Shown here: positions 49,401 to 62,670 of the stretch, one piece after another | Layout: the number at the start of each line of letters is the position of its first letter | Position numbering within the stretch: position 1 is the first letter of the stretch | Assembly: GCF_964355755.1 (NCBI RefSeq) | Contig: NC_092670.1 | Coordinates: forward strand, 25,159,795 to 25,223,794 | Length of the DNA: 64,000 bases | Source of the DNA: Antedon mediterranea | Taxonomy: Eukaryota; Echinodermata; Crinoidea; Comatulida; Antedonidae | Reading direction: 5' to 3' | Translations under genes and position numbers: made by a program | Notes under the pieces: generated by a model | What the model saw: only the letters and a program-made list of their open reading frames with translations | Databases searched by the model: none | What the model was told of the DNA's origin: nothing

Positions 49401-52400
49401 AAAAAACCAGTTGGAGTGTGTAAATACATTCCTACATTACATAAACGCAGGTCTATGTTCTAGACTGTTTCAACTTAAAATTAGTTAAAAGATATTTTGG
49501 CACATGGTGTTTAAACGTACAGTATAATACTTGAGCCTAACAAAAATTTAAATACCAACTGCTGGACTAAGATAAAAAAGACAGTAAATACAGACTTAAA
49601 TCTTATATCATTTTTAACTGTATAAAACATGAAATTTATTGGATGTAGAAAAATGCAGATAAAATCTAGAATTTAGAAACAAGACTAGGAAATGCCACTA
49701 TATTAGTGTCCATATTTAAAAAAAAACAATTTATACACTTTTTTTGTCTGGATTTATCCTTTAACAGCATTACCTTGAATCCACTGAGTAGTGTAAGCTG
49801 AATATTCAACTATATTGTATAGACAATTTAGTAACAGATATTAATCTACAGTAATTGTGAAACTATTTGGAACCAGCTTAATTATCCAACCAAATTTTCT
49901 GCTGTAGTCATGACTACCGGCTGAATCAACAAGATCGCTTACGAGTTTACGAAGGTGATGCCATTTATTTTGACACCTTTATGAAATCTTTTTTGTCTAC
50001 CCTCAGGCACAGGTTCCCTTGTGAATTCTTTTCAGTTTCAAATCTCTTCTACTGGGAGTTAAAAGCGTTTGATAAATTGTATATAAAATTTCAGAATGCA
50101 GCTCAAATAGATATTAGCTATCTGAAAAATCTTTAAACGTTTTAAATGTTTATACTTTAGAGCTAAGTAAATACTTAATCTTGATAGACATCCGGTGGCG
50201 TTTACTATGAGATAATCATCTTTGGCTTATTCGGTTTCGATTTCATTCCGTTTAAGATTTTAATTTGAGACTGAAACTCTTTTCACAATGCTTGTAAGAT
50301 TTTATCATCGTGGTAAGTATTCAAGTTCAAATGGTGGCCACTGCTACTTTTGTTATAGTTTTTTCTCTATTGTATTATATTGTTATACCTTGTATAGACT
50401 GTAACTGTATATTGTATGTATTATTATATATTTGCTGTGAACAGCTGAGTATATAGAATTATCCAAAACAGGAAGAAATGTTATTTTTCAAGCTAACCTA
50501 CAATTGTATAGTAAGTCATAATAACTGAAAAGTCAAAAATCAATTAAAAGAATGTTTATTTTATAAAGCTTCTTAATATTTAGTATTTCCTTATATTGAT
50601 TTGCACTTATTTAACTATTAATTATATATGTTTATGTTTATGTATTTTTCTACATTTATTTGCTATTGAATCATCCCTCTCTCTGTTTTGCAATGTGAAT
50701 ATCAATGTTGAAAATATCTTAATTTTATCTTCTAGAAAAAGGCTATGAATCCGACACAGAAACCATGTCTTCGTCCGAGCTGAGCGATTCTTGCACATCA
50801 TGCCCAAGTTGCCAAATAAACAGGACAGAAAACAAAAAGATGGAAAGAAAACGAGGACGAAAAGACAGTAGAAAACGACAATCACAGAAACAACCCCCTC
50901 TAGTGAATGATCTTAGTCACATGACCTTACCTCTGACGGAAGATGCTGTCTTGAATATCTTACATGAAAGATGGATAGGTGGCTCATGTATGGTAAGGTT
51001 TACATTATGCTAATGAGAATTTATGAATGTTTACTGAGAACTCTTTAGTGTATCCATATATTTTGGCAGCCATAATATATGACAAATTTTTCTATGCACT
51101 TAATAGTATTATTAAATGAATTCAATATTAAGGGAAGCCTTCGGGACCCAACAAAATGTCTCTTTGATATGGGTCTCCCCCTGCTGAATATGAGCAAACT
51201 GTCCCCTTATTATTCATTGCTTCTACTATATACTTTTTAAATATTATAAAAAAATTTAATTTGACAGACAAAAATTGGATCAATCGCTCTAAGCTTGAAC
51301 CCATACAGCGGCCCAGCTCTACATGAAGTCTTACAAGAAAAGCCTACATCTTGTACTGTAGGTTCAATGGTTGACAGTATTGCAGAAAAGGTTCTGAATC
51401 AATTTGTTGAAACTAATACTTCTCAAAGTATCATCTTCAGGTAAGAAATCTTATTAAATCAATTACAGTGTTCACTGAAGCATATCAACATCTGGAATAA
51501 TCAATGCTTTGCTATGATTACTTTTGCACACTTTAAAATAGTATTGACATTTTTAATAAATCTAAACTGCTAAAAGTAATAAACATTCACAATATAAAAA
51601 ATGCTAAATATGCACCAATTTTGTTAATAATTTATTAAAATTAAATGCCAACAGAGTTTTACTGTTTTTTTTGTTTGTTTTTTCCCCCAGTTTCACTAGC
51701 ATTCATATAAACTCATAGAATTGTTTTTTATTGTTTTGATAGTGGTGATAGTGGTAGTGGAAAAACGCACACAGCTCTTGCAACTTTAAGACAACTGTTT
51801 CGATTGGCTGGTGGCGGAACAGAAACTGATTCATTTAAGGTATGTATTGTAATATTCACCACATACCACCATCTTTCAACATTAATTAATTTTGTGCTTT
51901 TTACATTTTCTGTTGATTGTTCAGCGCTTAGAGGTGCCCTGCATTAGTGCGCTAATAATTTGAACATTATTATTATTATTATTGTTATTATCTACTACCA
52001 AATTCACAAATTCCCAGTGGAATCATATTCCATCCGTATTTTGACAGTTAATAACTTTTATACAATAATTGTCTCTTTTGATATAGCATCTAACTGCAGG
52101 ATTCACCGTTCTTCGCTCTCTCAGTACAGCTAAAACAAAACACAATTCCAACTCTAGTCGAATGGTAAGCATCTAATCAAAAGTTCACAAGCATTAATAG
52201 GTGGACAGAAATGATACTGTAAACATATGTTTGTTTAATTTAAAAGTGGTGTGCACTAAATAGTGTAGGGAAGTAATGTCCCAAAATTTCTATACTGTCA
52301 TTTCTCATTAATACTGTAATTTGTACATGCCGAGAATGTTAAAGAGTCGCTATCCAATTGAGTTTGAACAATACCATGAAAGCCCCAGTGGTCTAATGGT

Positions 52401-55400
52401 TAGGACATCTGCATATCAAGCAGGCGGTCCGAGTTCGAGTCTCGGTTTGGGCGTCTTTTTCTCATTCTCACAGATTTCCTCATCTTTATCGTTTCAAATT
52501 AATTAATTAAATTTCAGTATATCACCGGGCGGTTTAGAATTAATGACAAAATTCCTATTCACCATACTTACAATAGTAACATGTTTTGATTCAGGGTCAT
52601 TATATAGAAGTCTTACTGTCTGATTGTGCTATTTATCGCACCAAAATTCACTGTTACTGGACGGACCAATCTCGCATTGTCCAACCACCCGTGACCGGTG
52701 ACAATTATCATATATTTTATCAAATGTTAGCGGGACTGACAAATGAAGAAAAAGGTAAGTGTATAAAGATTAACAAAAACATTATTAATTATTTGCACTG
52801 CTATATGCTTTTTGCATAAACACTCTCCAGATCTACCAACCCTTCCCAGTTAGTTTACACCCCCAGTTGAAGCAATTCTATACCCCCAGTTCAAATAGTT
52901 GAAGCAATTTTACACCTACACTTTCTTTTTCATAATTAATGGTCAATATCAATCATGGTATCTGTGATAGACTTAAGTCTGCCCTTTTTCAAATGATTTT
53001 GACACTTTATTTAACTTGTTAAAACCATTTTAATCTTTTGATTTGTGTAAATCTTCATTTTGATGTGTTTTATTGTACAGTTTTTATGTTTCACCTAAGG
53101 GAGGTGAATAAATTTGAATTTGAATTCAATGGAATCGACCCCATTTCCATTACCTAAAATGGAACCGCATTGGGAATTTTTGTAAAAGAGATACCTCTCT
53201 TAAACATAAAAATGTTAATGTTGTTTGAATGTATTTCCAGCTGTAATACCATTCTTGTTAGGATATGGGTAATTTGTCATCACTCATCCATAATCCAGAT
53301 AATAAACAACCAACTATCTTGTTGTTTTTCTCATTCTCATGTGTAATCAATCAGCTATTCCTAGCTTGCATGTTTTGAAGTCTAAATTCCTGGCTTGGCC
53401 TAATTTGACATTAATAATAAATGTTCCATTAGTCCATGTAAACTAAATGTTAGATAAGGTTCATTTGTGTCTCATATGGTTTTCATCACCCATCTCATAC
53501 ATGCTCTTGTTGTCTTGAATATGCATATTCTAGATCTTTGACTTTTAAAGAATTAATTATAAATCACATAACAATGTTGTCTAATAAATGGAATCAATGC
53601 CTCATTGTACTATAAATGCAACACAGTCAAACCACAATGTATTTATTATCTTGATGATGTCATCGCTAAATTATGTCTACAAGTTGTTTATTTGTTTTTT
53701 TGAAAAAACTGAATACTATTTCAAGTTTATGAAGCAAATATAGTCACATTTTAATGATTTATCTTGATATTCAATAAATTAAAATACTGTATTGTCCCAA
53801 CTAACTCTTTCTCTGTGCAGGTGCTCTACTTGATAAAAAATAAAAGCATATTAACAACTTCTTCTTCTAGTGAAATTACACCTTCAAGGGTACTCAGCAC
53901 TTGATGTAAATTATCTTAATGATTTACCACGAGATGAAACTAGTGATGCTGAAAACTTTGCAAATTGGCGGGTAAGTAACGTTACTTTGAACCACACCCC
54001 TTTTTACTGTGATATCTGCCACCATTTTACATTACAGTCAACTGTCCCAATACTGGACACCTTTGGGCCGGCCTAATATGTCTGGTTTTCTCAGAAGTCT
54101 GGTATTCTGAATGTGTTTTTAATAACAACAATGGGACCTTTTGAACCTCAAGAAAATTCTGGTTTGGGGAGAGTTTCTGGTTGTTAGAGAGTCTGGTATT
54201 AGGAGAGTTGACTGCATTATGATTTGATAAAGTGGTTACATTTATTTCTTTGCGTTTTCAGACATCCTTGGCTGTTCTTGGAATCCCTTTCTTTGATGTC
54301 ATCAGAATCCTAACTACAATACTGTTGCTAGGCAACATAGAGTTTATTGATGATGGTGGTTTTGAGCTAGATATCAAAGGAAACACTGGTAGGTATCAAA
54401 AATGAACAAAGTTTGTGATTGTCGACTCAAAATTATTTTGCATGCCCATATTTTCGTTTTTTTTTATTACTGTGAAACATTTATTTAACAATAAATAATA
54501 TTTAATTTATTTTGACAGTGCTCTATCAACTAATTCTATCTTTTTATATTTTTATAATTTAGAAATCAAAGCGGTTGCTGCGTTGCTTGGGGTATCCGGT
54601 GTTGTTCTTTATCGTGGCTTTACAACAAGAACACACAATCTTAAAGGACAAGTGTTTAGATCCTTGTGTGATGCAGACACGGTATATATCATTTAACAAC
54701 AATATTAAATCAATATATAATAAACAAATTTGATATAGTATATTATAACAGAATAGTTAAATTCTGTTAAAATCTGGTGCATTTTAACATACTAGTTCAC
54801 AAACAACTTCGTGATACCGTTTCACAAACTAAATTGTCTTTTATACTATTTTACTCGTAGGCCAATGAAACCAGGAACAGACTGTCAAAAGCACTTTATT
54901 GCCGTACGGTATCAGCGATTGTTCGTCGCATTAACAGCGTGAGACGCCCTGCTTCTCAGTCAGGTGCATCTACTAGTAGCAGTGATGAAGTGCAGAGTAT
55001 GGGTATGCATTTATTAACATTTTAGGGTCAAATTAATTAAGTATATTTATTTAAAAATATTTGTTTCTTAATTACAATGGGTGATCTATTCAGTACAAGA
55101 CTGTTATCCTAGAGAACTCTACATGAAAGAAAAAAAAAATATTAGGCCAATTTCCAACTTTACATTCCATTCAAGGATGAGGCGCAAGCAACAAATGAAA
55201 TGTATCATGCCCACGAATACAATTATTCATTGTTATCTTTTAGACAAAAAGAATTTCTATTTGAATTTAATTTAATTTAATTATGATACAGTCACGCCTC
55301 AAACCCATGCCTCTCACATGGTAGTCTAATTTATGTAACAAATGTAATTTTGTTGTTGATTATTTGTAATTTCAGATTCAGTTTTCAAACCGTTAAGGCA

Positions 55401-58400
55401 GTCGTCTCCAGCAACTTCTAAAAGCTCTGTCAGTCACTCAAACAGTTCCCATGGATTCCCAGGGGAAGGCTTCATTGGCTTAGTAGACATGCCTTGCTTC
55501 CACAATCTCAAAGTAACTACTAATCATTGTTTTCCTCATCTAGAACACTTTCCCAATGTTTGTGGTGGCATCCTAAGAATATGTAACTTTTTTTTTTCAA
55601 CTCTAAATAGTCCACTAACAATTTAGGGTCTTTATAAACTTTAAAAAAAACCGACATGTTCTGTTATTAGATTTTAATATTAAATTTTTGCATTTTTCAA
55701 AGGATAGCATCAGAGTGTATACTCCAAGATGTCTACATCTCAAAATGGCAAAAGGAGCCTGGATTCTTTTTTCGTAGTTCCATCCCCTTTTCAATTCAAA
55801 TCTCTCCTGAAAACTCACCTATTTCAATAGCTATTCTTTTCTTGTGTGCTGTAAGACTCCGATAAAGAGCGCTTTATAAATGTTTGATATTATATTATTA
55901 ATAATAAAATAATTTCTTTTACAGTGTAACCAATTGGACCAATTATGCATGAACCTCTGTTCAGAAAGATTACAACAATTTTACATTCAGAATGTTTTTA
56001 CGGACAGTATAGAAGTGGCAAGGTATGAAATCATTTGATTCCTCAACTTTTAATTTTTCTAATTTTTAGATCTATATTCTGTGTTGAGTTGCTACAGTAT
56101 TTACCATTTATAACAGAAAGATAATAACAAAGAAAAGTATGAATTATGTTTAAAAATACATTATACAAATCAATGTGATTATCTTTTAGGGCTGAAGGAG
56201 TTGAGAATGTGTTAGAAATGGAATACATCGACAACAAACCATGTATAGATCTTTTAACTGCTCCAGTAAGTACTTTTGTCTTTTCATGATAAAAGAGGGT
56301 GCATCTCTAACCAACAACAAAAACAGCACAGTTGCTATTAGGAGAATATGGGGGAATACTTAAGCAGACCTGGTCCATAGCATAACAGAAATAAACTGGG
56401 CAAAAGTGTTATCTCTTTATAGCTATGTGTGTGTAATTAATTCCATTTTTAACTCGCCGCTATATTAATTAATAATTGCATTTTTTTTTATAGAAAAATG
56501 GAATTTTGGCAATTCTTGACAAAGAGACATTTTACCCAAAATGCAGCTGTGAAAATTTCCTTGAATCTCTGCAAGATTGTCACAATAATAACAACAGGTC
56601 AGTATGATATTTTCATGAATTGAGAAGTTCTCAGCCAGGCCTACCATGTGAATATTTTTATGATACAATAGGGAGCTTTCAATTTGTGATGACCCAAAAC
56701 ATCTATAACTAGTTATGTCATTTTAAATCATGCATGTGCATGTGGGGACACTGAAACGTGCTTCCTTACTTGGTTTCTCAGATCAGTTGTTGATCCAGAA
56801 AACTAATGACACAATACGCTTAGCTCCTATAGGTCTTGGCAAATTGTAAGCTTGTGAAAAATGGTCACTTTATTTTAAATTCCTTCAATTTCTGTCTAAA
56901 CTGTTATTTCAGGTACTTCACTCCAGCCGTGGACTGTGAAAATTCATTTGGTGTGAAGCATTTCGCTGGTAATGTAGTCTACGATGCTAACGCCCTTCTA
57001 GAAGGCAATCGAGATGTTCTCAGTGATGATATTGTCAGCGTGTTCCATAAAAAATCTTGTAACTTTGGTTTTGCAACGCATCTTTTTTCTCATGAGTTAA
57101 AAGCACTTGAAGGTATGTGAGATGAATAAGCCAACCATTAGGTTGTAATTATTATGATTATATGTATGCGCTGCTAAAAGGTCTAAGAAATAAAAACTTT
57201 GACATCATAAGATGAAGACATTTTACTATTAGCCTGTTCCACCTTGTCAGAAGAGGTTGTGTGTCCTAAATTCTGGTGGTTTATTTTCATATAATTTTCA
57301 TTTATTTTCAAAATAAAATTAAAATTTGTTCTAATATTGTTAATTTATGATGTATAGTTGATTTTATTAGGAAAACATTTTAATATTTGATTTATTTTGT
57401 TGAAGGTATAGTAAAGTAAAAACTAATTTTTATGTGTTGTTTATTTCATAGGTGGCAGTCCAACTGGAACTATATTTAAAGTTTTCTCCAGTTTTCATCC
57501 AGAAAACCACTCTAGGTAAATCACATGAACATTTAAAATAAATACTTCACAACCTTATACTTCATCGGTTTTGTTTGTGAATCTACCTCTTTTATGTAAA
57601 CATCACAATTTGATACTTATTTATTTTCTAAATTGTAGTAAAAGTTATGAGGGTGTGAAAAGTACTCATATGCAAGATTTTCAAATGCGGCTGGACAGTT
57701 TAATGAAGACTCTACGCCAGTCAAGTCCACACTTTATACGATGTGTTAGGGTGAGTACGAGTTCTAAGCCTACTACATATTCTGAATACTTAAATGAACA
57801 AATTTAAGTCTTTTTGTTTTGTTTTTTTTAATTCAACCTTTTTACACAGAGGCTAAACAAGGTGAAATCATCTTCAAGGCTCCTCAAATTAACAAGAAAC
57901 CGTTTTACATAATAAAACAATAAAGCATTTTCACGAGTCCAAAAAATTCACTTAAAAATTCAAAATTATACGTTAGGAAAAATCCTTGGCTAAGATATCC
58001 TCAATAATTGAGTTAGCATTTACATTTGTTTGTGTGTACTAGGTGTAATATGCCTATTCTTGTTTATATTGTATTACCATCATCCTAAATAATTGTCTCA
58101 TCGTTATAGTAACCATATTTTTTAACAAACATTATATTTGTGTTATTCTACCATAGCCAAACAACTCCGAGGATTGCAATACCTTTGAACCTGATATCAT
58201 CAAAGAGCAACTAAGATCACTACAAGTACTTGAAACCACACATCTATTTGCTGGAGGTAACAAGCATTGCAAACAGATTCTAATACAGTCAACTCTCCCA
58301 ATACCGGACACCCTTGGGCGGGCATATATTTTCCGGTTTTTCGAAAGTCCGGTTTCCTGAAAACATATTTTTAAAGTCATCACGTTGTCACCGAATGCTG

Positions 58401-61400
58401 CCCGGTACGGTCTCCTAGCGTAGGGAAGGCCTAGGCTAGGCTATGATTGTGTCAATCTAGTTTTAATTAAATAAATACTGATAGGCCTAGGCCTACTTTA
58501 TTAATATTAAGCTACAGTAATTCAATTTACCTTTTTTAAAAGTTACATTATTTACTGTACCAATAAAACATGTTACAATAGTAAATTATTGTTTCTCAAT
58601 GTGTTTTTAACGGCAAAAAGGCCTACGTACGTACGTACGGTGAACATAATTTCGGTCTGTTTATTGTTTTTCGTGAGCTAGCTAGCAGCAGCAGCATGGG
58701 TGAAGGGCTTTGATTGATGCGCATGTGCAGAGGTGTCATAATAAAATAAAAACGCCCACACCTAGACCACATGTTTTTTAAGCTCCTTTATTTTGACGTA
58801 ATTTGATAGCAATGATGAAAATTGATTAGGTAAACGAGCCAAGCAATAATGACACAATAATTAATTGGTAACATTTCAAAGTTTATTAACACTAGTTAAG
58901 TCAAGTTCATTCCGTTTACGTTTTGCCATAATGATTTCCAAATTTATAATGATGCACATTTTTAGTCCCGTTTTTAGTGAAACATTTAAAGTCCTATTGC
59001 AATTGTGAATTTAACAATAATTTAAACAAAACAAAGACACAGGAATGTAAATTTAACTTTATTAAAAAACAATTCATATGCTAAAAAACAGGGAGTTGTT
59101 AACAACTCCCTGCTAAATACAATAGAGACATAGCGCTTCGATGTGAAAAAGCCCACCGCAGTTCGATACGCAACAAAGCAATTGCCGCCTCGTGGTGGGT
59201 TAACAATGAACTGACCTGTCAATCACAGTGTAGTGCTCCATGGCAACATTATTTGATCGTACCGCGAAACGTCGCGCACTTCATGCATGGTGAGGGTATG
59301 GTTAAAAAGCTTTTGTACATTGTGAATGTAGTGAATCCGAGTCAGCGACGACGATGTTGCGTTGTTTTCGTAAATATTTGGAGTTTTTTAACCGTCAGTC
59401 CGGTTTTCAGACGCTAATTTTCGTGTTTTGTACTTCATAATTTGTCCGGATTCCGGAATTGGGTATTCCGGTGTTCATAATAAATTACAGTACATTCAGA
59501 ATAGGGACAAATTGGGCCCTCCAAAAAAGTCCGGTTTTTCGTGAATTCCGGTTTTGGGAGAGTTGACTGTATATGTATAAACCCATTTACTAAAATTGTC
59601 AAACTTCATAGCCTTTTGTACACAATACCCAATACGGTATATCATTTTGTTTTCATTATACTTCAATATTCATTTCTTTAGGCTATCCCAATAGACAGAC
59701 ATTTGCAGATTTTAACAAGAAATATGGCTTCTTTGCACCAAGACGAATTCTCAACAAAACCAAAGATAAAGCTTTACAGAATTGCAAGGTAAGATATGTG
59801 TTAAAAAGGAAAGAAAATGTATAAAAAATAACCAACCTGGGGCGGATCCAGAGGGGGGGTCTACGGTGTCCGGACCCCCCCTAAATTTTAAGGGTGCCCT
59901 TTTTTTAGAGGTTCAATATTTTATTCGTGTGACATATTTGTGTGTATATTAGTATGCACAGAGTAAGCTACACTAACCCCAAAAATAAAAACAGAAATTT
60001 ATCACAATGAGCGCGATGTTAAGTTACGGCGGCCGATCAAAGAGCATTGTGAGAGGTGGTGATGCGTGATGATCTCTACTTAAACTTCTAAAAATAGATC
60101 GTTTCGCATACTACAGAGGGCGCATGTAAACTTTTTACGATTCAACTCCGCGTACGTTACCATGCGCGTTCTGTCATTGACGCGATTATTTGTCCATTGG
60201 TAAACACATTTTTATGTATTATTATTCTGAAAATAATTGAACTGTAAACATAATTCTTTTGAGTATTTGTTTATTTACATATCATTCCATCAGATCAACT
60301 ATTTTTTATTTACATTACATCCAACCAAACATGTAAAAAATGTAGTTAAAATATCGTACTATCTACCGCGTACGACCATACGCGGTAGATTGTTTACTCA
60401 AAAATCATCGAACGGTCCTTACACTATACTATTCAACCTTGTTTTTATAGTTGAGCCTCTCATGACCTGGGATTTGTTTGTCTTCCTACGCCAAGATAAT
60501 ATAGTTCTACAAGCCATGTGCTTTTTTCTCTGAGAAATATTTATTATAAGTGCCAAAAAAATGTTTTTTTCTCGATATAAAGCCTTTATTATTCAAATCT
60601 TTTAAAGAAAAATCACACATACCATAATCATAAAGAAGGTTCATTTTTTTCATTTTTGAAACAATATTTGTGAAAATTACGTGAGGCTCAACTACAAAAC
60701 CACCATTTTGTGATATGATGTCATCGTAAGCCAATCATAGCTGAGCTTTCCCGCGATCGGCAGAGCTCACGGTTGAATGATTTTGGATTCTGGCTATTTG
60801 ATTGGTGGACGCGAATCACCCACAGCGGAATGTTTTCTCTCGCGCGCGTGTACCAAGAAGTCACGTGATCTCTCTGTACTGAACGGTACTCTACACAAAT
60901 TTAGAGCAATGAATTTGTACGAATTCCGTTAAATAAACAACTCTATATATTTTATAAACATTTAATAATATTTTATTGATATTTCCAATGTTGATAAATA
61001 AAAGAAATTACTATAAAACGTAATTATATGTAATTATTTTAGCGAAAAATGGCGCAATTTGTTTACAACGTTCGTGGCTGCTAAAAACGATCATTTTCGG
61101 CAATGTTTTAGACCCTATATTTCGAAAACTACAAGTCAGATTTTCGTAATTCTTTCTTTATTGGAATATTGAAACAAAATACCAACAGATAATGTTTAAA
61201 TTGGTTGAAAAATAACAACTTTTAATTTTGCATCGTTATCCCTGCTAATAAAGTGTCATTTCCGGCGAACTAGAAAGGTGCCATTTATCATGGATTTTGC
61301 GTGCGAGAGTGCCATTTCCGGCCATCTAAGTGTGTCCTGTAACAAAATTCGCTTCGCCACAACCCCCACCATGGGGGGGGGGGGGGGGGCTGTGGCTCAA

Positions 61401-62670
61401 ATACTCAATATCTGATGTGCCCTTTTTATCGGCGGACCCCCCCTCTCAAAAATGTCTGGATCCGCCCCAGCCAACATATTTAAAAGGTAGTTATTTTTTA
61501 TGTTGGTAATTGTTATTATGGTAGCCCAGAGGTGCCTTGCTAACTAAATGATATTTCCAATTCTGTGTGATCATAATTCCTATGATTTGGAGGAATTTCC
61601 GGGTAGTAAATCAAATTTTGTTAATCAACTGTTTTTGTTTTTTTAAAGACTATTTTAGATTGTTTCTTACAAACAATGGAAATGAGTTCACTTCCTTACA
61701 GCAGTACAACATGGGCTATTGGAACAAAGCATGTCTTTCTAAGGTAAGATGAGGTTTATATATAATACAAATATTGCCTGCGTAGAGGGGAAATATAGCA
61801 TAGGCTATGTATTTTAGTATTATTATGTAGTAAATTATTATTTTATAACAATATGGCTACACTCAACAAGTTAAGGAAACATTTAAAACATTTTTGAGTT
61901 TTTGATATGTGTTGGTATAAGAAACAATGCAGCCTGAAATAAAACAATAGCCCATGGTTATAAATAAATTACATTTATTTATAATAAATAAATCAAATTT
62001 GCAATTCAATCATTTTCCAAACCTATAGTGAAGAAGCTGTGCAGTATCTGGAGCTATGTCAGATTGAAAGGCGCCACCAAGCCGCAATCACCATCCAGTC
62101 ACGTGTCAGAGGTTGGCATTGTCGGAGAAGATGGCCACTGTTGAAACGGCAACTAAAACTGCATCAAATCATGGTGAAGATAAAACGTGATGCACCTCCA
62201 TGCCGACCAAAGCTGTTTGATGTGTAAGTTGAATTACTTGCAATATATTTGTAACTTCTTTTCATTTTATTTTACCAGTTTTATATGTTTTTAAATGTAT
62301 ATTGTATATTGATAAATAATTCTATGTAGTTAAGTTCTTCCCCAGAGAGGCCCCAGACATATCATGTTATGGTGACTCTGTTGCCTTTGGGGTCCCAGCA
62401 CTTTTTTTATGTCGAATGAATAAATGGGAAAAGAATGAAACGAAATGTAATGCAACACATGGCGTACAAAAACTTTTGCAATATAAGAAGCAAATGAATT
62501 TGTAACATTTGGTACACCCATGTTTCTTGATATGGCTATTCGTGATATATAATGTTTATTTTTCAATTTAGCATGGAACCTCCTCCACCACCCCCTGGTA
62601 GACCCCCTCCTGACCCAGATGACCAACAGCACATTATGCAACAAACTAGGCAGATATATGGTGCAAGATG
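31458..62670 (+). CDS. Unconventional myosin heavy chain, probable pseudo-motor, possibly Dachs/class XX-like (3' partial)
   Basis: Exons: 31458-31533, 39368-39502, 50736-50992, 51268-51440, 51743-51839, 52087-52164, 52595-52754, 53871-53971, 54262-54388, 54563-54681, 54861-55002, 55376-55512, 55925-56022, 56190-56265, 56494-56597, 56913-57112, 57452-57515, 57639-57750, 58157-58256, 59682-59788, 61649-61743, 62029-62223, 62572-62670. All 22 joins keep one frame (950 codons). Residues 1-70 include a coiled-coil-like stretch (SLLREQLRNLSTELLSLKQ); about 71-135 is charged and Ser-rich. The P-loop GDSGSGKT is intact (215-222). Switch I reads NSNSSR (266-271), near the usual NDNSSR. Switch II, normally DxxGFE, reads DMPCFH (526-531), losing the Gly and Glu needed for ATP hydrolysis. 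A Ser-rich insert of about 50 residues precedes it. QLCMNLCSERLQQFYIQNVF and SSPHFIRCV are typical motor motifs. One IQ motif (AAITIQSRVRGWHCRRRW) precedes a proline-rich tail (EPPPPPPGRPPP). The last exon ends in phase 2, so the gene runs off the window. Class XX is my best guess. Confidence 0.87.
31534..33119. other. First part of the proposed myosin intron 1
   Basis: AT-rich. A diverged copy of the SINE tail (CATCTTCACTG to TATATCACTGAGTGGTTTAT) is near 32750-32812. The open frames at 31913-32107 and 32397-32588 show no family resemblance. Confidence 0.4.
33120..33340 (-). mobile_element. tRNA-derived SINE
   Basis: On the minus strand a tRNA-like head starts at about 33338: GGTAGCTGAGTGGTTAGGAC (A box), and later GGTTCAATTCC (B box) near 33270. 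It is followed by a body with AATGAGTACCTGGTTAAA and a GGTGGCATGGAAAGGAACTGG block. It has the architecture of a polymerase III SINE; the family was not identified. Confidence 0.7.
33341..36090. other. Intronic DNA without recognisable features
   Basis: AT-rich with scattered short open frames, none with family resemblance. A small inverted CCCCCCTGAAGGGGGTTAGGGG is at about 35340. Confidence 0.4.
36095..36477 (-). mobile_element. Chimeric SINE: 5S rRNA head, tRNA-like middle, conserved-looking tail
   Basis: On the minus strand 36477-36356 reads like a 5S rRNA gene: TACGGCCATACTGCG, ATCACCGAAGTTAAGCAACG, then GATGGGAGACCGTCTGG and a GGGTGCAGTATATAGGC end. It runs directly into a tRNA-like part (GATGGTGGTGTAATGGTAAT as A box, GGGTTCGAAG as B box, to about 36285). 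The tail holds CATCCTTAGGCAAGATGCTT and CTCTCATTGCCCCGTCCTTC. This 5S plus tRNA order is the one described for AmnSINE1-type (Deu-domain) SINEs of vertebrates. Whether the tail here is a true Deu domain needs alignment. A truncated relative is at 55286-55335. Confidence 0.8.
36356..36477 (-). pseudogene. 5S rRNA-like head of the SINE
   Basis: About 120 bases with the internal promoter region recognisable (GAAGTTAAGCAACG for the A-box area; GATGGGAGACCGTCTGG for the C-box area). Substitutions in stems and lack of an immediate T-run terminator make it a SINE promoter rather than a working 5S gene. Confidence 0.75.
36480..38183. other. Intronic DNA
   Basis: AT-rich. TTTCACACCGGTTCTGGTTC at 37247 resembles a transposon end, but I found no matching second end. 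A pair of short inverted runs near 37940-38090 (ACAAATAATGAATGTTT and its complement) may be another small foldback repeat. Confidence 0.35.
38184..38491. mobile_element. Palindromic MITE, 308 bp
   Basis: Ends CTATGGAACGCCGTTTACGC and its exact complement GCGTAAACGGCGTTCCATAG. The two halves fold on each other over most of their length (TTTCGATGATATGAATT..., GACGCGATAT...). The centre is a run of CATTCAAAACATT-type repeats. AATA flanks both sides and may be the target duplication. No coding capacity. Confidence 0.85.
39542..41057. mobile_element. Foldback element with tandem-repeat arms, 1516 bp
   Basis: The left arm (39542-39855) is an array of about 18-bp units, CCACAAATGTGAAAACAA. The right arm (about 40795-41057) is the same array in reverse complement (GTTTTCACATTTGTGG). 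The outermost bases TGTTGAACCCACAAAT and ATTTGTGGGTTCAACA are exact inverses. The centre is itself a hairpin: about 125 bases from 40050 (CGATACTTCAAGCTCAAGGCC) pair imperfectly with about 40190-40325. A TA microsatellite lies at 40422-40490. No clear target duplication and no ORF beyond translated repeats. It starts 39 bp after the donor of proposed myosin exon 2. Confidence 0.8.
41120..44445 (-). pseudogene. TRIM-NHL (TRIM2/3/71-type) pseudogene, interrupted by a hAT element
   Basis: Read on the minus strand without introns: a B-box-like zinc finger with a small frameshift (CSTNKKPLE, then LYCTKCKVPICMQC, about 44420-44290); a coiled coil (44280-43800, heptads around LEDRIKVVTENAMKLEE); a filamin-type Ig repeat (about 43760-43450, QPIFARINIPHKVG and NPGICTLNVYFNDKPIKQSPL); and NHL repeats (43400-43123 continuing at 41496-41125, with GPQGVVVDEDDNIIVSS and KLQLFGSDGHF). 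Stops and frameshifts occur near 43760 and within the NHL part. A 1610 bp hAT insertion splits the NHL region, so it is not functional. The RING finger is not seen. The lack of introns suggests a retrocopy or an ancestral single-exon gene. It lies antisense in a myosin intron. Confidence 0.82.
41505..43114. mobile_element. hAT-type non-autonomous element, 1610 bp
   Basis: Ends CAGTGGTGGCGCCAGG and CTGGCGCCACCACTG are inverted repeats. The 8-bp target duplication TTCTTGTG is present at 41497-41504 and 43115-43122. Subterminal G-runs (CCCCGACGGGGGGGCC) are repeated at both ends. It shares its ends and an internal block (TTTTGGTCCCTGGATG...GATTCGTACAAAGAGACACC) with 19266-21112 but has only one such block. 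No transposase. Removing it and one target copy restores continuity of the NHL relic. Confidence 0.87.
44446..50735. other. Long intronic stretch of the myosin gene
   Basis: About 6.3 kb of AT-rich DNA. Short open frames on both strands show no domain, no codon bias I can judge and no good splice-bounded exon. Small local features only: a G-rich run at 44898-44960 and a palindrome CATGGAGAAATAA/TTATTTCTCCATG at about 46459-46486. An undetected extra myosin exon is possible. Confidence 0.4.
52380..52540 (+). mobile_element. tRNA-derived SINE, head plus tail
   Basis: The head 52384-52456 folds as a tRNA by eye: D arm GGTCTAATGGTTAGGAC, anticodon stem TCTGC/GCAGG with loop ATATCAA, T arm CCGAG TTCGAGT CTCGG, and an acceptor stem with one mismatch. 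The tail (CTCACAGATTTCCTCATC to TATATCACCGGGCGGTTTA) recurs at 22558-22636 and about 32750-32812, so this is a SINE rather than a working tRNA gene. It sits in the intron before the myosin exon at 52595. Confidence 0.75.
52990..53130 (+). repeat. Possible LINE 3' tail
   Basis: GGGAGGTGAATAAATTTGAATTTGAATTC resembles the short-repeat (TTTGAA) tails of L2/CR1-type LINEs. There is no coding remnant. The rest of the 1.1 kb myosin intron 52755-53870 is AT-rich without features. Confidence 0.35.
54035..54214. mobile_element. Short pogo-like MITE, 180 bp
   Basis: The left end CAGTCAACTGTCCCAATACT and right end AGGAGAGTTGACTG are inverted. It is flanked by TA on the left and CA (a decayed TA) on the right. 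Its ends match the larger element at 58286-59569. It lies in a myosin intron. Confidence 0.7.
55286..55335 (-). repeat. Truncated copy of the 5S-tRNA SINE family
   Basis: The complement reads AGACTACCATGTGAGAGGCA then TGGGTTTGAGG, matching the tRNA-like B-box part of 36285-36340 (GGACTAGCATGTGATAGGCA). Only about 50 bases are recognisable. Confidence 0.5.
55690..55905 (+). repeat. LINE 3' end fragment
   Basis: The bases at about 55796-55827 translate FKSLLKTHLF, a motif seen near the C-terminus of L2/CR1-type LINE polymerases. They are followed by TAAAGAGCGCTTTATAAATG and an ATT-rich tail. 5'-truncated and dead. In a myosin intron. Confidence 0.55.
58286..59569. mobile_element. Pogo-like DNA element, 1284 bp
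   Basis: Ends CAGTCAACTCTCCCAATACC and its near-complement GGTTTTGGGAGAGTTGACTG. TA lies on both sides (58284-58285 and 59570-59571). Subterminal GGTTTTTCGAAAGTCCGG and GGTTTTTCGTGAATTCCGG are also inverted. The interior has a 24-bp perfect palindrome at 59089-59112 and no transposase that I can recognise. In the myosin intron 58257-59681. Confidence 0.75.
59837..61470. mobile_element. DNA element with CTGGGGCGGATCCAGA ends, 1634 bp
   Basis: The termini CTGGGGCGGATCCAGA and TCTGGATCCGCCCCAG are perfect inverses, and GGGGGGGTC/GACCCCCCC runs follow inside. A 5-bp target duplication CCAAC flanks it (59832-59836 and 61471-61475). No transposase is visible. A G run of about 20 is near 61373. A nested short element is at 60446-60694. 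A solo end of the same type is at about 9088. Superfamily not assigned. Confidence 0.75.
60446..60694. mobile_element. Possible nested MITE
   Basis: Inverted ends TAGTTGAGCCTC and GAGGCTCAACTA, about 250 bp apart, lie inside the element at 59837-61470. Only 12 bp of terminal repeat is clear and no target duplication was confirmed. Confidence 0.4.

Follow-up and report, generated by a model that had tools for sequence, protein, structure and literature searches.

Whether a myosin head can be kept in an animal genome after both catalytic residues of its switch II have been lost is the question raised by a gene of the crinoid Antedon mediterranea. This gene lies in a stretch of 64,000 nucleotides (C1:25159795-25223794, contig NC_092670.1) of a genome of 354 Mb, made up of 18 contigs; the whole stretch is hereafter called the window, and positions given without a contig name are counted from its first letter. 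The original prediction, made from the letters of the DNA, had read the motif DMPCFH in the exon at 55376-55512 as a destroyed switch II and the protein as a pseudo-motor that binds actin or works as a scaffold. Our analysis indicates that this is probably a real and intact gene for a pseudo-motor, a further case of a known kind, and we consider it likely that the head of this divergent animal myosin binds F-actin (and partner proteins) and acts as a scaffold that does not go through a cycle driven by ATP.

The reading of the motif itself was borne out. Exon 11 reads ...GFPGEGFIGLVDMPCFHNLK (the C-terminal end of the exon at 55376-55512 being GFIGLVDMPCFHNLK) and exon 12 continues with CNQLDQLCMNLCSERLQQFY, with AG/GT flanks and a consistent phase on both sides. 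Switch II and the relay align gap-free to the solved heads of myosin Va and myosin X, therefore Gly has truly been replaced by Cys, and Glu by His, at positions that correspond in the alignment, DMPCFH standing where myosins have DIxGFE. The P-loop GDSGSGKT and the switch I NSNSSR, which the prediction had also named, are present (GESGAGKT and NxNSSRFGK in working motors), and switch I is followed by MGH instead of the FGK of most other heads. Further changes in the nucleotide pocket are YWTDQSR for YLLEKSR and a His for the Tyr of NPxxxxY, switch II thus being only one of several altered elements. Taken together, P-loop, switch I and switch II do not carry the signature of a working motor. 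Another exon that could supply an ordinary switch II was looked for and rejected, as a script pattern search of both strands of 54801-56200 gave no D..GFE; its matches there were the DMPCFH motif, one D..TFN and one RHGFE (- strand); the whole window holds two D..GFE matches, i.e., DDGGFE at 54349, which lies within exon 8 and is not switch II, and one on the - strand.

The Gly of switch II contacts the gamma-phosphate in myosins. With this Gly lost, together with the Glu that would be the salt-bridge partner of the switch I Arg (itself kept), the head should be unable to adopt the closed state that is competent for hydrolysis; the nearly kept P-loop may still allow nucleotide binding. A milder change is known from class XVIII myosins, whose switch II reads DTxGFQ and in which, according to a review (PMC11112018), the loss of Glu should disrupt a salt bridge that hydrolysis requires. 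The same source describes negligible ATPase and a changed switch I for class 18 heads, as well as a Pro in the switch II of mammalian Myo18. From the two switch II replacements, the YWTDQSR and MGH changes and this review we infer, on well-founded sequence-based grounds, that normal hydrolysis has been lost; this, the intactness of the gene and the reading as a scaffold or actin-binder are the parts of the earlier interpretation that are supported.

The gene comprises 22 exons on the + strand (50288-62670), for which the splice sites were read and subsequently checked by script. All 21 introns are GT-AG, the phases are consistent throughout, and the 888 codons are open, with no stop and no frame break; the translation had previously been given as 950 residues. 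Exons 2-22 (50736-62670), all preceded by AG and followed by GT, hold 879 stop-free codons. At intron composition, chance would give this with a probability of ~10^-29, a value that is idealised since open exons had been selected. The protein matches the Pfam Myosin_head profile with 377.2 bits (E 1.9e-112, cut-off 33.3 bits). The exons are the following:

50288-50312, + strand: probable first coding exon, MLVRFYHR plus 1 nt (ATG, 8 codons, GT donor fitting the next phase, in-frame upstream stop)
50736-50992, + strand: exon 2, N-terminal region and start of the motor (AG..GT, open frame)
51268-51440, + strand: exon 3, NPYSGPALH, i.e., NPxxxxY with Tyr changed to His (splice sites, alignment)
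51743-51839, + strand: exon 4, P-loop GDSGSGKT at 51744-51767 (splice sites, alignment)
52087-52164, + strand: exon 5, switch I NSNSSRM (splice sites, alignment)
52595-52754, + strand: exon 6, remaining switch I (GHY), YWTDQSR for YLLEKSR, NYHIFYQ (splice sites, alignment)
53871-53971, + strand: exon 7, motor (splice sites)
54262-54388, + strand: exon 8, motor, ILLLGNIEF (splice sites, alignment)
54563-54681, + strand: exon 9, motor (splice sites)
54861-55002, + strand: exon 10, motor, beginning of the Ser-rich insert (splice sites)
55376-55512, + strand: exon 11, remainder of the insert and switch II DMPCFH at 55486-55503 (splice sites, alignment)
55925-56022, + strand: exon 12, relay helix NQLDQLCMNLCSERLQQFY (splice sites, alignment)
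56190-56265, + strand: exon 13, motor (splice sites)
56494-56597, + strand: exon 14, motor (splice sites)
56913-57112, + strand: exon 15, lower-50K strut FGVKHFAGNVVYDANALLEGNRD (splice sites, column comparison)
57452-57515, + strand: exon 16, loop 2 region by position (splice sites)
57639-57750, + strand: exon 17, helix-loop-helix FQMRLDSLMKTLRQSSPHFIRCVR (splice sites, column comparison)
58157-58256, + strand: exon 18, SH2/SH1 region (splice sites, alignment)
59682-59788, + strand: exon 19, end of SH1 and start of the converter (splice sites, alignment)
61649-61743, + strand: exon 20, converter (splice sites)
62029-62223, + strand: exon 21, single IQ-like motif IQSRVRGWHCR at 62093-62125 (by eye; opposite the first IQ of myosin Va in the alignment)
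62572-62670, + strand: exon 22, proline-rich stretch (PPPPPPGRPPPDP), terminal or spliced on at GT 62671

About 65 residues precede the motor in this model with its probable first exon, and no long upstream open frame was recognised. The Ser-rich insert directly before switch II counts 52 residues (17 Ser) and spans exons 10-11. At the other end, the frame of exon 22 across the donor reads TGG TAA, none of 11 candidate next exons was preferred, and neither a coiled coil nor a tail domain was seen in the exons found. Another gene faces the myosin on the - strand (64457-67822 in window numbering), with two long open frames that measure 665 and 420 residues, a C2H2-like stretch being present in the first; this suggests that there is little room for a long myosin tail. 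The introns hold elements of their own: a tRNA-Asp-like gene (anticodon atc, 52382-52453), perhaps a tRNA-derived repeat, in the intron that splits switch I, and two elements (54035-54214 and 58286-59569) with CAGTCAACTCTCCCAA-like inverted ends that resemble a DNA transposon and its short derivative.

The original prediction also took the remainder of the head to be well conserved, which does not hold. Near-invariant columns were defined as those ≥ 90% identical in 17 heads (15 from the same genome and 2 from PDB), each head being excluded from its own count, and the window gene was changed at 39 of 97 such positions, compared with 0-9 (of 50 to 101) in the 17 control heads; the class XVIII-like head of the same genome was similar (37/94). 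Positions kept in the window gene amounted to 4/7 in the N-terminal part, 6/8 in the P-loop, 2/7 from P-loop to switch I, 6/8 in switch I, 9/18 from switch I to switch II, 2/6 in switch II, 6/10 in the relay, 1/2 from relay to helix-loop-helix, 7/8 in the lower-50K strut, 6/9 in the helix-loop-helix, 5/6 in SH1/SH2 and 4/8 in the converter. A clustering of the changes on the nucleotide side (P-loop to switch I, plus switch II) relative to the actin side (strut, relay to helix-loop-helix, and helix-loop-helix) was discarded after a Fisher test (16/29 vs. 14/19 kept, p 0.24), and the class XVIII-like head tilts the opposite way (19/29 vs. 7/16, p 0.21). Such divergence, together with the longest branch in both trees described below, could also point to a decaying or dead gene, a pseudogene in progress; the 888 open codons over 22 exons, the 21/21 GT-AG introns and the absence of any stop or frame break, however, make this highly improbable.

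The near-invariant positions retained in P-loop and switch I (6/8 each) and the kept NYHIFYQ also bear on another explanation, namely a slow but working, nucleotide-gated myosin which binds ATP and whose rearranged pocket gives slow hydrolysis or an ATP-regulated release from actin, as in a tether or strain sensor. It would be in line with the description of Dachs, the class XX myosin and growth-control protein of the fruit fly, as accumulating with junctional tension (PMC12828244). We regard this as unlikely, since both key residues of switch II are changed in addition to YLLEKSR and FGK, Dachs biochemistry is reported to show neither ATP binding nor ATPase, and class 18 heads still show negligible ATPase with a milder switch II change.

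For comparison, a further 16 myosin genes from this genome were used, with head exons stitched by profile and no splice-site check. They come from a Pfam search of the genome in which 80 matches were listed and 65 of 335 candidates scored; the loci fetched were those among the matches listed, minus further copies of one gene type on contig C3. The full D[IV]xGFE was present in 14 of the 16 genes, stitching having left a stray letter in one of them, C2_1.0. In another, C1_6.1, FE alone is visible, as this is where the stitched match begins, and the last one (C3_38.3) has DSCGFQ. A close paralogue of the window gene was not found in the own-genome search, where the best candidates scored gave matches outside the gene of ≤ 44% identity only. 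Scans of viral contigs (no relatives) and of prokaryote contigs (25 pattern matches, 0 confirmed) were likewise negative within their reach, which extends to close relatives only.

The gene with DSCGFQ is recognised as class XVIII-like because this motif with the insert following it, and the switch I NSNATRF, match the published changes. It lies at C3:38303518-38320300, has the P-loop GQSGSGKS, and represents a second probable pseudo-motor of the genome. Against this background, the comparison with class XVIII made by the original prediction stands as an analogy, in that Glu is lost from an altered switch II in both and the genome's own class XVIII-like copy is similarly divergent, but it probably does not extend to membership. 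The window gene has NSNSSR and DMPCFH, and the DTxGFQ-type switch II and an insert after it are both absent. The head phylogeny that had been proposed was run on 19 heads, with no class XX head included; class V and X labels of own-genome genes were given by their joining PDB rows in the tree, and two heads are taken by us for class II. In the two 19-head trees the window gene sits on the longest end branch (3.9 and 3.35; the class XVIII-like head has 3.12 where the window gene has 3.35), and has no starred neighbours. In the second tree it falls within a nine-row set that includes myosin X (91/91, not starred), whereas the class XVIII-like head joins the two presumed class II heads (99/99). 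An approximately unbiased (AU) test of the two as one clade gave p 0.061, and their separation, although it is that of the best tree, is therefore not formally decided. That the window gene is a member of class XVIII whose switch II has degraded further, as the Pro shared with mammalian Myo18, the similar divergence and this non-rejection at 0.05 would allow, nevertheless appears very improbable to us given the separate own-genome gene, in which NSNATRF and DSCGFQ occur and GFQ is followed by an insert, the different grouping, and the NSSR, the lack of an insert after switch II and the IQ-like motif followed by a proline-rich stretch with no coiled coil seen in the exons found.

Another metazoan class of restricted distribution is class 80, known from Ambulacraria and described with a C-terminal MH2 tail (PMC5583752). 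Next to another myosin head (C1:18083389-18098635) there is an MH2 match, which has the same orientation and lies ~5.6 kb to its 3' side; this makes that gene a class 80-like candidate; none of the 10 MH2 matches listed lies near the window gene (C1:25.2 Mb), the downstream region of which was not searched for other tail domains. On C3, one myosin head type has its switch II exon repeated at least 19 times over 5.5 Mb (C3:19618101-25122537), a large local expansion of a type which we presume to be class XIX-like. Class 36 (chitin synthase-myosin) was considered as the source of the many C3 matches and found unsupported, with two chitin synthase matches on C6.

As the class XVIII-like and class 80-like places are filled by other genes of the genome, class XX (Dachs) is the probable closest lineage by elimination and gene anatomy, elimination being used because there was no class XX sequence to compare (none was named among the best 60 of 150 PDB sequences). 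Class XX/Dachs has been reported in Drosophila, Strongylocentrotus purpuratus and several non-bilaterians, and four published non-arthropod Dachs orthologues are without the long coiled-coil N-terminus; the exon number and short N-terminus of the window gene fit such published non-insect orthologues. The tail of Drosophila Dachs is longer. Class XX is described with a long coiled-coil N-terminus and a short neck with one IQ motif (PMC2375034), the latter being matched by the single IQ-like motif found here; that no tail domain was seen also fits class XX. Dachs is reported absent from most of the chordates that one study examined. A figure legend attributes a unique insert in the head to Dachs, the position of which may or may not coincide with that of the insert in the window gene. 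A different solution is an as yet unnamed class of metazoan pseudo-motors, separate from XX and XVIII, in which switch II function was lost independently. The absence of a class XX sequence with which to unite the gene, the lack of starred neighbours, the 52-residue Ser-rich insert directly before switch II and the short N-terminus speak for it; the agreement of IQ number, exon number and N-terminus with the non-insect Dachs orthologues, and the lack of a second candidate among the 16 other genes fetched (where divergent heads may be missed), speak against it, and on balance we see it as rather improbable, if worth keeping in mind. A DMPCFH-type switch II was not reported in the titles and abstract beginnings of the best-ranked open-literature papers on pseudo-motor myosins and class XX/Dachs.

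For the scaffold reading that we favour, the closest model is Dachs itself, which according to PMC12828244 has neither ATP binding nor ATPase and binds F-actin and Warts, the lack of ATPase and the F-actin binding also being given in PMC8967653. In Drosophila, this F-actin binding is regarded as independent of ATP. By this analogy, the head may serve as an actin-attached scaffold: the well-kept lower-50K strut would fit a static or slow attachment to actin, while the IQ-like motif and the proline-rich stretch would connect the head to partners, perhaps SH3 proteins. More tentatively, and as something we think possible rather than likely, an animal myosin head may have been retained for its actin- and partner-binding surface after both catalytic residues of switch II were lost. 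Several observations weigh against the favoured reading and its placement near class XX. For instance, P-loop and switch I keep most of their near-invariant positions (6/8 each), and the nucleotide side is not significantly more altered than the actin side (16/29 vs. 14/19). The SH1 helix is itself altered, with THLFAGGYPNR for IRxxGFPxR (outside the near-invariant columns), and the IQ motif has no Pfam match in the gene product at E 0.001. The long coiled-coil N-terminus of class XX was not found in the model, the 5' end of which is only probable, and a single IQ and a high number of exons also occur outside class XX. In addition, the gene has the longest end branch without starred neighbours, and the genome search (65 of 335 candidates scored) did not list it, so that divergent heads, possibly including another class XX gene, can be missed by this search and the 16 genes are not the whole repertoire.

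Whether Dachs works as a myosin is named as an unanswered question in a 2026 review (PMC12828244). A class XX-like gene that lacks both the Gly and the Glu of switch II would weaken the motor reading for class XX, and comparing switch II among the members of the class would show when the loss took place. If the gene belongs to class XX, in an animal that is not an arthropod, Dachs would have given up hydrolysis in ancient times, and the effector of Fat/Dachsous would have been a scaffold from the outset; if it does not, it would represent a separate pseudo-motor class. The gene also indicates that the reading frame of a myosin head lacking a normal catalytic switch can be kept intact through 22 exons.

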